From: an uncultured Neglectibacter sp.
GTDB lineage: Bacteria; Bacillota; Clostridia; Oscillospirales; Acutalibacteraceae
Assembly: GCA_904419785.1 (NCBI GenBank)
Contig: CAJFSY010000008.1
Span: forward strand, 1-64,000
Length of the DNA stretch: 64,000 nucleotides
Reading direction: 5' to 3'
Of this stretch, positions 19,946 to 32,176 are shown piece after piece. The notes under the pieces are model-generated. The model was not told the DNA's origin. It searched no databases and saw only the letters and a program-made list of their open reading frames with translations. Within the stretch, counting starts at the first letter, position 1. Each line of letters begins with the position of its first letter. The translations under genes and the position numbers were made by a program.

Positions 19946-20080
19946 TCAATAAGTAAGACGCGCTCTGCCTTTTGCCCTGCGGCGTGCAAGTACCTTGCGA
20001 CCGTTTCTGTCAGACATTCTCTTCCGGAACCCATGCTCCTTCTTTCTGTGGAGCTTCTTGGGCTGATACGTTCTCAGCAT
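19946..20080 (-). CDS. rpmH: 50S ribosomal protein L34 (44 aa)
   Basis: My translation: [44 protein letters not shown]; absent from the ORF track because of its size. Confidence 0.97.
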
Positions 20081-20327
20081 ATAAAAAACCCTCCTTTCGA
20101 GGTTCTATCCCTTGCGAGAAAACATTATACCTTAAAGCCTGCGCTTATGTCAACACCATTTTTACAAGGTTTTTCGGGCAAAAGAAAGATTTTTTTCCGA
20201 CCCCTTTCTAAAAAGTTGTTCTTTAAAGGGCAACAAACAGCAGATTTTCAAGGATTAATGAAAAACACCACAAGGTCTTGTGCTTTTTTATGAGAGGTGT
20301 AAGACCTGGAAAAAGGGGGAAAAAAAT

Positions 20328-20356
20328 TTGAAAAAAATCGGGAACTATGATATACT
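20328..20356 (+). promoter_or_regulatory. dnaA promoter (TTGAAA-N17-TATACT)
   Basis: Near-consensus sigma-A promoter 106 nt upstream of the proposed TTG start. Confidence 0.7.
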
Positions 20357-20462
20357 TTCAGCTGAGTATCGTCCTTTTGAGAGAATGCCCCAAAAGGACG
20401 AAGTTTGGGAAATGAAGCGGGACAGCCCGCAAAAGATTGCGTTTACTTGGAGGGGAATCAAT

Positions 20463-21785
20463 TTGGATTCATTCGATCAGGCTTGGGAGCTCATCTGCCA
20501 GTTTTGCAAATCAAATATCACGGAGGTGGCCTACAACACCTGGTTCAGCCGTTTGAAACCGGTAAGTCTGGATTTTGACCGGGCTACGGCCATCATCGAG
20601 GCCCCCAACGAGTTTCACAAGCAAACGCTTCTGCGGTGTTACAGCGACCTTTTGCGGGAGGCTTTCGAAAATGTGTTCGGCGGCGGGATCTCCTTTCAGA
20701 TCTGCGTCCACGAAGAACTAAAAGTCCAACAGCAGCAACAGCCCCAGGAAGACACCATGGACCAGGACGACTATGAGCTGAACTTCGACACGTTCGTGGT
20801 AGGACCTTCCAACCGGTTTGCCCACGCGGCCTGCCAGGCCGTGGCGGCCAAGCCTGCCTTGCTGTATAACCCGCTGTTTATCTATGGAAGCTCGGGATTG
20901 GGAAAGACACACTTGCTCAACGCTGTGGCCAAGGAGTTCAAAAAGAATTTTCCAGACCGCTCCGTGATCTACATCAAGTGCGAAGATTTTACAAACGAGA
21001 TCATTGAGGCCATCTCCCGGGGTACTACAGCGGCCTTCCGGGAAAAATACCGCAGAGCCGACTTGTTCCTGGTGGACGATATCCAGTTTATCGCCGGAAA
21101 GAACTCCACCCAGGAAGAGTTCTTCCATACCTTTAATACGCTTTACGAAGCAAAAAAGCAGATCGTGCTCACATCAGACCGTCCGCCCCGTGACATCGCC
21201 ACGCTGGAGGACCGTTTGAAAACACGGTTTGAATGGGGCCTTACCGCCGATGTGCAAGCTCCCGATTTTGAGACGCGCATCGCCATCATCGCCCGGAAAG
21301 CCGAGAGCCTGCATCTGGACATCCCAGAATCGGTGTGCGAATATATCGCAAACAAATTAAAGAGCAACATCCGCCAGCTGGAAGGCGCCGTGAAAAAACT
21401 GCGGGCCTACCATCTGCTGGAAAACAAGCCCATCAACATTGCCACAGCCCAGGCGGCTATCAGCGATATCATCAACAACAGCCAGCCTACTCCCGTTACC
21501 GTGGACAAGATCATTGAGGAAGTGGCCCGCACCTATGGGGGCATCACTCCCGACGATATCCGCTCGCAAAAGCGCAACGCCAATATCTCCAAAGCGCGGC
21601 AGGTCTCCATGTACATCGTGCGGGAGATCACTCAAATGTCCATGGTGGAGATCGGCCAGACTTTCGGCGGGCGGGACCACTCTACAGTGGTATACGCCGT
21701 GCGCCAGGTGGAGAAGGACCTGAAAAAGGACCCCCACACCAAAGCCATGGTGGACGATATCATTAAGAACATCCGGGACCGTTGA
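20463..21785 (+). CDS. dnaA: chromosomal replication initiator DnaA
   Basis: Domain I (LDSFDQAWELICQFCKSNITEVAYNTWFSRL), AAA+ GSSGLGKTHLLNA, domain IV GGRDHSTVVYA; TTG start with GGAGGGGA RBS. Confidence 0.95.
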   Translation: MDSFDQAWELICQFCKSNITEVAYNTWFSRLKPVSLDFDRATAIIEAPNEFHKQTLLRCYSDLLREAFENVFGGGISFQICVHEELKVQQQQQPQEDTMDQDDYELNFDTFVVGPSNRFAHAACQAVAAKPALLYNPLFIYGSSGLGKTHLLNAVAKEFKKNFPDRSVIYIKCEDFTNEIIEAISRGTTAAFREKYRRADLFLVDDIQFIAGKNSTQEEFFHTFNTLYEAKKQIVLTSDRPPRDIATLEDRLKTRFEWGLTADVQAPDFETRIAIIARKAESLHLDIPESVCEYIANKLKSNIRQLEGAVKKLRAYHLLENKPINIATAQAAISDIINNSQPTPVTVDKIIEEVARTYGGITPDDIRSQKRNANISKARQVSMYIVREITQMSMVEIGQTFGGRDHSTVVYAVRQVEKDLKKDPHTKAMVDDIIKNIRDR

Positions 21786-21831
21786 GTCCCCAGCTTTTTG
21801 GAACCTGAAAAGGATTGGAACAGTCGGCGGT

Positions 21832-21878
21832 TCCCCCGCTGGTCTCCCCCGCAGCTTCGGGAGGGGGCCGGCGGGGGA
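21832..21878 (+). terminator. GC-rich hairpin terminator downstream of dnaA
   Basis: TCCCCCGCTGG-TCT-CCCCC / GGGGG-CCG-GCGGGGGA stem; T-run follows shortly after. Confidence 0.65.
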
Positions 21879-21954
21879 TTCCGGGAGCTTTTTTCCCTTT
21901 TTCCGGGCCATGTATTTTGGTCCGGAACGCTCTGTTCCATATTTTTTTTAGCCA

Positions 21955-22155
21955 AAAAGTTTTCCACACTTTCTTTCACATTCCCTCCACATGAATTCAC
22001 ACGCTGTTGAATGTGAAAAACTTTTTTCTCCGCCTCCACGGTTTCTCCACAGGAGGTTTTGAAAAACTTTCCAGGCAAAAAATCAAGCCGGCTGTGGGTT
22101 TCCAAAACTTTTCCACAAATTCACAGCCCCTACTACTACTTCTAAATCTAAGATA
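21955..22155 (+). other. oriC: oriC: DnaA-box cluster plus DnaA-trio-like unwinding element
   Basis: TTTTCCACA at 21960-21968 and 22109-22117, TTCTCCACA 22043-22051, CCCTCCACA 21983-21991, inverted TGTGGGTTT 22093-22101 and TGTGAAAAA 22012-22020, then CTACTACTACTTCTA 22130-22144. Confidence 0.85.
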
Positions 22156-22218
22156 TAAAAGAAAGGATAAAAAGGCCGGGCTCGGTTCTAGCCCTCCCCC
22201 GGCCGGAAAGGGATCCCT

Positions 22219-23322
22219 ATGAAATTCACAGTGAACAAAAGCGACATTACCGAAGCCGTTGGGAATATCCAGCGGGCCGTTTCCACAAAAACATCCATCC
22301 CGGCTTTGGAAGGCATCCTTCTGGGGGCTGGTGACCAAGGTTTAGAGCTGTGCGCTTACGATCTAGAATTAGGGATCACCACTGTGATCCCCGCCCAAGT
22401 GGCTGAACCGGGCAAAGCTGTGCTGAGCGCCAAGATATTCTCCGATATCGTCCGGAGAACTCCCGCTGAGACCATCACCATCACAGTGGATGAGAAAAAT
22501 ATGGCCAGTTTAGAGAGCGGTTACAGCCGGTTCTCTATTATCGGCATTCCCGCGGAAGAATTTCCCGAACTGCCCAAACTGACAGATTCCACCCAGTTTT
22601 CCATGGCATCCAGCGTGCTGAAAAGCATGATCCGCCAAACTTTGTTCGCCATAGCTGAAAGCGACGCAAAACCCATCCATCAGGGAAGCTTATTCAACTT
22701 GGAAAACGGTGTGCTGGACGTGGTCAGTGTAGACGGTTACCGTTTGGCCAAACGCAGCGAGCCTTTGAACTTCCAGGAAGATCTGAATTTCGTGGTGCCC
22801 GGCAAAACGCTCAGCGAGATTTTAAAGCTTTTGAAAGACAGCGATGACCCGGTAGAAATTTCCGCCGGGAGAAGGCATATCCTTTTTAAGATCGATAACT
22901 ACACTGTGATTTCCAGCCTGCTGGAAGGGGAATTCCTCAATTATAAGGCGGCCATCCCCCCGGACAGCCAGACGGAAGTAGTTTTAAAGACCCGGGAAGC
23001 CATCGACAGCGTAGAACGGGTGTCTCTGCTGATCACCGACCGGCTGAAAAGCCCTGTGCGGTGTGTTTTTTCCGATAACGAAGTGAAAATGAACTGCACC
23101 ACTTCCATGGGACGGGCAAGCGACCAGATCGATGTGGAAATGATCGGGCAGGATGTAGAGATCGGCTTTAACAACCGCTATCTGCTGGAAGCCTTGCGGA
23201 ATACCGAGTGCGACGAGGTAAAAATCCAGCTGGGCGGACCTTTGAGCCCCATGAAAGTTGTGCCGAAAGAAGGAGACAGCTTCCTGTTTTTGGTACTGCC
23301 CGTGCGGTTGAAGAGCGAATAA
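22219..23322 (+). CDS. dnaN: DNA polymerase III subunit beta
   Basis: MKFTVNKSDITEAVGNIQRAVSTKTSIPALEGILL; C-terminal LVLPVRL. Confidence 0.97.
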   Translation: MKFTVNKSDITEAVGNIQRAVSTKTSIPALEGILLGAGDQGLELCAYDLELGITTVIPAQVAEPGKAVLSAKIFSDIVRRTPAETITITVDEKNMASLESGYSRFSIIGIPAEEFPELPKLTDSTQFSMASSVLKSMIRQTLFAIAESDAKPIHQGSLFNLENGVLDVVSVDGYRLAKRSEPLNFQEDLNFVVPGKTLSEILKLLKDSDDPVEISAGRRHILFKIDNYTVISSLLEGEFLNYKAAIPPDSQTEVVLKTREAIDSVERVSLLITDRLKSPVRCVFSDNEVKMNCTTSMGRASDQIDVEMIGQDVEIGFNNRYLLEALRNTECDEVKIQLGGPLSPMKVVPKEGDSFLFLVLPVRLKSE

Positions 23323-25036: not shown

Positions 25037-26041
25037 ATGGGAAAGGCTGGTATCGTTATGCAGTATTTTGGAGTACCCACATGCCCCTATTGCAAAAAAA
25101 GGGTCAATTTGATCCGCACCTGGTCTTTAAAGCGCCAGGGCGAGTATCAATGCCCCCGGTGCGGCGGCATTTCCAACATCTTTTTGTCCCCGCTGGTGTA
25201 TGTGTTCGCTTTGTTGGCGGTATTTTCCGGCGGCGCGGTGTATTTCTTCCACAAGTTCATTTTGGATGACGTAGGGCTTACCACCTGTTTGCAGGTGCTT
25301 ATCCCCTTTGTGTTGTTTTTCCTGCTGAGCTTGTTCATGGTTTATTTGGCCAAACCTGTCATCAAACGCGTATCACGGGAAGAGAACGGCAAGAAAAAGC
25401 AGGGCCGCCCCACAGGAGTGGAAGGCCGCCGCTCTTCGGGCAGTTCAGGGCAGACCGGGCAAATTTACGTCGATCAGGAGGACTATCTGCCTCAAAAGGA
25501 TTACCGCACAGGGCCTTTGCCCCAAAGCAGGCCTGTGAACGCTCCCGCGCCACAGGCGGTAAGGGGGAACGTCCAGCCTACAGCGGTGCTTCCTCAGGAG
25601 CCCCGGCGGAATCCCGCTTCTTCTGTTCAGCGGCGGCAGTCATTGCAAAATACCGCCCAGCAGAGACCGGTGCGCCAGCCCGCCTCCTCGCAGAATCCCC
25701 AGGCTCAGGGACGTGTGCCCGCAGCCCGGCAGCAAGCTGCCTCACCGGCCCAGCCAGCCAGGTCTGTTTCCCGGGCCTCTCAGCAGGCGACATCCTCTCC
25801 TGCTATGTCCCAGCGCCAGTCCCCGGCGGCTTGGCCCCAAGTCCAGCAGCCTGTTTCCCGCCAGCCCATGCCCAGCGCTCATGGAGGTTCTACCCAGGAG
25901 CCCCGGCGGGCGTCTCATGTGGTCAGCAGCGTAGAGTTCCCCAGAGTGGACAGCGACTTTTTCGCCAAATACGACGACCCCTCTTATGTGGAGCGCCGTT
26001 TGAAAGAGCTTCAGTCTAAGGATGGGAACGATTCCAAATAA
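25037..26041 (+). CDS. hypothetical membrane protein: N-terminal zinc ribbon, two TM segments, long P/Q/R/S-rich tail
   Basis: CPYCKKRVN...CPRCGGIS four-Cys motif, two hydrophobic segments, low-complexity C-terminal half ending in a short charged motif. Confidence 0.7.
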   Translation: MGKAGIVMQYFGVPTCPYCKKRVNLIRTWSLKRQGEYQCPRCGGISNIFLSPLVYVFALLAVFSGGAVYFFHKFILDDVGLTTCLQVLIPFVLFFLLSLFMVYLAKPVIKRVSREENGKKKQGRPTGVEGRRSSGSSGQTGQIYVDQEDYLPQKDYRTGPLPQSRPVNAPAPQAVRGNVQPTAVLPQEPRRNPASSVQRRQSLQNTAQQRPVRQPASSQNPQAQGRVPAARQQAASPAQPARSVSRASQQATSSPAMSQRQSPAAWPQVQQPVSRQPMPSAHGGSTQEPRRASHVVSSVEFPRVDSDFFAKYDDPSYVERRLKELQSKDGNDSK

Positions 26042-32097: not shown

Positions 32098-32149
32098 AAA
32101 AAAACTGGCCTATGGGGTAAAGCGTTCAAACCCCAAGGCCAGTTTTTTC
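32098..32149. terminator. intrinsic terminator
   Basis: AAAAACTGGCC...GGCCAGTTTTTT. Confidence 0.8.
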
Positions 32150-32176
32150 ACAGCCTTGCGAAAAGCTGTGGAAAAT

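Follow-up and report, generated by a model that had tools for sequence, protein, structure and literature searches.

The closest described counterpart of the element reported here is the basal unwinding system (BUS) of the Bacillus subtilis oriC (incC, boxes 6/7 plus DnaA-trios), which lies between dnaA and dnaN and combines tandem co-oriented DnaA boxes, a short GC spacer and 3'-GAT-5' trios followed by an AT-rich element. A BUS is defined by a box with at most two mismatches to TTATCCACA and at least three trios within 16 bp, with a published peak of the box-to-trio spacing at 10-13 bp, and is common although not obligatory, being present in 1755 of 2070 surveyed origins (85%; PMC8287927). 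The trios are consecutive 3'-NAN-5' triplets, with GAT favoured near the box, and a tandem co-oriented box pair is the commonest arrangement (57%), although optional. Opposite the trios runs the DnaD recognition element (DRE), 5'-TnnT-3' (PMC10201434). An additional box cluster upstream of dnaA makes the origins of B. subtilis and Clostridioides difficile bipartite. In C. difficile and other clostridia oriC1 lies between rpmH and dnaA and contains 9-19 boxes, and oriC2 lies between dnaA and dnaN; every clostridial origin analysed had both halves, and in C. difficile both were needed for unwinding in vitro (PMC7561715). For Campylobacter jejuni, a monopartite origin is described in a group that has relatives with bipartite origins (PMC6052347); this one-locus architecture is the sole comparable feature, as C. 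jejuni belongs to another phylum and epsilonproteobacterial boxes differ. In the literature searched, we found no description of the origins of the uncultured-rich gut order studied here and no paper on the DnaA boxes of the Faecalibacterium oriC.

The DNA analysed is a stretch of 64,000 nucleotides (the window) from an uncultured Neglectibacter sp., part of a 133-kb contig in a 2.23-Mb, 98%-complete draft genome of 38 contigs (G000). On its + strand the window carries dnaA, dnaN, recF, a RemB-like gene, gyrB and gyrA in this order, with rpmH, rnpA and yidC divergent (Table 1). The dnaA product matches TIGR00362 at 505.7 bits in a profile search, and among PDB entries B. subtilis DnaA scores best against it (8BTG, E 6.8e-112). 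A 334-aa open reading frame between the RemB-like gene and gyrB (25037-26041, +) has no match in Pfam or NCBIfam, and upstream of rpmH a perfect sigma-70 consensus, TTGACA-18-TATAAT, is present at 20124-20153 (-). Gene context, skew minimum, box clustering, BUS geometry, duplex instability, conservation and intact DnaA residues all agree in identifying the dnaA-dnaN gap as an oriC with a DnaA-trio element, as the initial annotation had proposed. We put the probability that this gap is the chromosomal origin, a single-locus oriC with the BUS as its active core, at roughly 0.94. It would be an ordinary and well-preserved origin of a known kind, to which a one-piece architecture extending over the order and a short motif, AAATC, are modest additions. 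This gives base-level positions for the origin and its opening element in a gut order rich in uncultured members, and the gap provides a 433-bp test piece.

Table 1. Features of the dnaA region (positions in the window;. = no strand assigned)
Feature	Position	Strand	Basis
rpmH	19946-20080	-	ORF; rnpA and yidC likewise on - strand
rpmH-dnaA intergenic region, without DnaA-box cluster (oriC1 position of bipartite origins)	20081-20462	.	box scan
Probable dnaA promoter, TTGAAA-17-TATACT	20328-20356	+	consensus scan
dnaA, replication initiator, TTG start	20463-21785	+	Pfam Bac_DnaA, Bac_DnaA_C, DnaA_N
dnaA-dnaN intergenic region, very probable oriC, 433 bp	21786-22218	.	box enrichment, skew minimum
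DnaA box TTTTCCACA, exact TTWTNCACA	21960-21968	+	pattern scan
One-mismatch DnaA site	21972-21980	+	pattern scan
DnaA box TTTTTCACA, exact, inverted	22012-22020	-	pattern scan
Weak DnaA box TTCTCCACA, one mismatch	22043-22051	+	pattern scan
One-mismatch DnaA site	22058-22066	-	pattern scan
BUS box 1, TTTTCCACA, exact TTWTNCACA	22109-22117	+	scan; position conserved in genus alignment
BUS box 2, AAATTCACA, weak, overlaps box 1	22117-22125	+	genus alignment columns -13 to -5; core T[C/T]CACA conserved
GC spacer GCCC	22126-22129	+	sequence, genus alignment
DnaA-trios CTA CTA CTA CTT CTA (+), 3'-GAT GAT GAT GAA GAT-5' (-)	22130-22144	-	pattern search, genus alignment
Probable DNA unwinding element, least stable 40 bp of 20-23 kb	22133-22172	.	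nearest-neighbour energy
AAATC, near-invariant in genus, directly 3' of trios	22144-22148	+	genus alignment
dnaN, sliding clamp	22219-23322	+	Pfam DNA_pol3_beta domains

When DnaA boxes were searched as TTWTNCACA, with 2000 dinucleotide shuffles of the gap as the null, the dnaA-dnaN gap was found to contain three exact boxes (0.034 in shuffles) and six sites with at most one mismatch (1.12 in shuffles; p below 0.0005 in both cases), which makes it the densest box cluster in the window. Most of the boxes reported in the initial annotation were recovered at their positions, with the exception of CCCTCCACA (21983-21991) and TGTGGGTTT (22093-22101), which have three mismatches each and are not boxes. 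A box pair at 32144-32175 was considered as a second cluster and rejected, being an inverted repeat directly after a GC-rich hairpin that resembles a terminator region more. The T at position 3 of TTTTCCACA, correctly noted in the annotation, does not make this box unusual because it falls within the classical TTWTNCACA consensus, and T is the usual base in the order (158 T to 60 A downstream of dnaA, vs 36 T to 82 A outside the order). Domain IV of DnaA reads ARQ in the genus and PRQ in most genomes outside it, the variable residue corresponding to number 406 in E. coli. Control of base 3 by this one residue was rejected, since T is also favoured downstream by PRQ genomes within the order (30 T to 16 A) and A is found in some genomes with ARQ; base 3 is thus a lineage trait and not the product of a simple determinant.

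The arrangement at the dnaN-proximal end of the cluster matches the B. subtilis BUS in position, short GC spacer and 3'-GAT-5' trios leading into an AT-rich element, and may match it in its tandem co-oriented boxes. Box 1 has one mismatch to TTATCCACA and lies 12 bp from the first of five trios, four of which are GAT, including the three nearest the box. This combination of box, spacer and at least five trios occurs once in the 64-kb window. The Bacillus-type layout proposed at first stands in its box, trios and AT-rich element, but its register was off by one, the + strand triplets being CTA and not TAC/TAG. Likewise, what had been taken for a GC-rich spacer contains the weak box 2, AAATTCACA, so that the true spacer is the shorter GCCC. 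Box 2 has three mismatches to TTATCCACA, yet within the genus its core is kept at the same place. The locus differs from the B. subtilis BUS in having TTTTCCACA as box 1, a weak box 2, AAATC after the fifth trio and no upstream half. A DRE calls for a DnaD homologue and for two or more TnnT on the + strand. By inspection, the + strand CTACTACTACTTCTA opposite the trios holds four TnnT in register, and a 325-aa protein carrying two DnaB_2 (DnaD-type) domains is encoded in the genome (about 310500-312500 of contig C1, L100). Directly after this gene lies that of a 329-aa AAA+ protein, named by eye as resembling a DnaC/DnaI-type helicase loader. A YabA-family initiation regulator was not found in the 98%-complete genome. 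Between 20 and 23 kb, the least stable 40 bp start within the trios: the stretch 22133-22172 has a nearest-neighbour energy of -42.0 kcal/mol, compared with a window median of -58.3 kcal/mol, and the 40-mer starting at 22130 is within the top 0.04% of the window for instability.

The clearest departure from the clostridial bipartite origin, with which the locus shares gene order, oriC2 layout and a trio preceding the unwinding region, is that neither this genome nor, with few exceptions, the other members of the order that were sampled have the oriC1 cluster. Upstream of dnaA (20071-20462) there are no exact boxes and one one-mismatch site, where 0.05 and 1.39 are expected, and this one site is the -35 region of the probable dnaA promoter; no second cluster of the kind found in B. 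subtilis or C. difficile is present, in agreement with the earlier reading of a single origin. When exact TTWTNCACA boxes were counted within 500 bp either side of dnaA in 166 genomes, at least two upstream boxes were found in 9 of 119 genomes of the order (genus 1/21, family 3/16, order 5/82) vs 34 of 47 outside it (class 19/26, phylum 15/21). The order as a whole hence lacks the upstream half that bipartite clostridial origins have, and because the order forms one clade on the DnaA tree, this is largely a single inherited difference instead of many independent losses. Downstream of dnaA, all groups have boxes at about the same frequency, so the search pattern is not at fault. A joint evolution of upstream-cluster loss and T-type boxes was rejected, as independent pairs on the DnaA tree show no association. 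A normal bipartite oriC whose upstream boxes are too degenerate to be detected by TTWTNCACA is the alternative that survives best, although we consider it unlikely. In the genus, the region upstream of dnaA is somewhat richer in one-mismatch sites than expected (63 vs 25), and a few relatives (G011, G005 and G027) keep one or two exact upstream boxes; however, 16 of these 63 sites are one and the same promoter -35 sequence, TTTTTCAAA, and the pattern readily finds the downstream boxes of the same genomes. In a one-piece origin, one half would have to suffice for what requires both in C. difficile in vitro, and the order-wide absence of the other provides a natural test of the purpose of the second half in bipartite clostridial origins.

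The element is conserved well beyond this genome. Almost all genus relatives that have a usable gap share the BUS arrangement, which is also recognisable across the family and much of the order. When the genus is aligned, the flanks look nearly random, whereas conservation is evident in the boxes, in the spacer and at the middle T of each trio; one trio is broken in several relatives (G004, G014 and G017). By a strict trio score, the region downstream of dnaA was positive in 12/21 genus, 3/16 family, 23/82 order, 8/26 class and 12/21 phylum genomes of the same comparison, and none of the upstream or shuffled downstream regions was. In named genomes, exact pattern matches come mostly from Acutalibacter, Neglecta/Neglectibacter and uncultured Oscillospiraceae, in keeping with a genus in the vicinity of Acutalibacter. 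An extended 21-mer, in turn, is not widespread, occurring with at most two mismatches in only 7 of 399 phylum genomes, the window's own included. Box variants exist within the genus: in G022, G010 and G018 (L018/L024/L025), BUS box 1 is TTATCCACA/TTATTCACA and box 2 is TTTTAACA, and domain IV of DnaA has SRQ in place of ARQ; in G005, TTAACA is found in each of the two BUS boxes.

GC skew, which the initial annotation had put forward as a check, shows the minimum and strand switch that characterise a chromosomal oriC: the cumulative minimum of the window lies at 21-23 kb, coinciding with the dnaA-dnaN gap, and the curve rises afterwards, a signal that is local because the genome is a draft of 38 contigs. 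In the single-contig congener G022, the sign changes at dnaA: apart from local exceptions, the skew is mostly positive for about 1.6 Mb after this gene and mostly negative before it. Regulation of its own operon by DnaA is common, and a cluster between dnaA and dnaN might mainly control transcription of these two genes, with the trio tract being incidental. We regard this as very improbable, in view of the coincidence of the skew minimum with the gap, the strong conservation of the trios, which few other parts of the gap equal in the genus, the lack of a box at the dnaA promoter and the absence of promoter-like sites from the gap in a consensus scan. Boxes for DnaA are short, and the window as a whole contains 143 sites that deviate from the pattern by no more than one base, but a chance resemblance of AT-rich repeats to boxes and trios is next to inconceivable, as the box-plus-trio pattern appeared in none of 2000 gap shuffles or 150 whole-window shuffles and the element is kept in relatives whose flanking DNA has diverged.

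How DnaA would bind and unwind such an oriC, which strand it would choose and how helicase would be loaded can be proposed by analogy with B. subtilis and its relatives. An oligomer nucleated by DnaA-ATP at box 1, with weaker binding at box 2, would extend onto the 3'-GAT-5' trios of the - strand and capture their bases, upon which the AT-rich duplex would open at about 22130-22172, while the outer boxes (21960, 22012 and 22043) may raise the local DnaA concentration. Helicase loading would come next, and the DnaD-like protein and the AAA+ loader-like protein encoded beside it probably take part in this step. The DnaA of this bacterium has the same trio-capture residues as that of B. subtilis: by residue count in the 8BTG alignment, the equivalents of N187, I190, I193, R202, E228 and R264, which function in trio capture and oligomerisation, R264 being the arginine finger (PMC10721633, PMC8287927), are all identical.

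Past the trios, AAATC is shared by nearly all members of an alignment of 26 genus genomes (the alignment of G024 being doubtful); three of its bases are invariant, above most trio bases, and conservation fades about three bases beyond. The motif is not general in relatives from the family or order. Neither a sixth or seventh trio nor a continuation of TnnT accounts for AAATC, since register and invariant bases do not fit. A speculative and rather doubtful scenario is that the ancestor of the order lost the upstream half, leaving a one-piece oriC, and that in the genus AAATC is read by the leading DnaA subunit or by the DnaD-like or loader proteins, setting the placement of the first helicase. 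The actinobacterium Corynebacterium dentalis (NZ_OCTS01000004.1, L076:2105-2131) carries CACAGCCCCTATTACTACTTCTAAATC, AAATC stretch included, in its own dnaA-dnaN gap, and this sequence agrees with the pattern of the Clostridia genus at all specified positions, a match that may stem from convergence or transfer.
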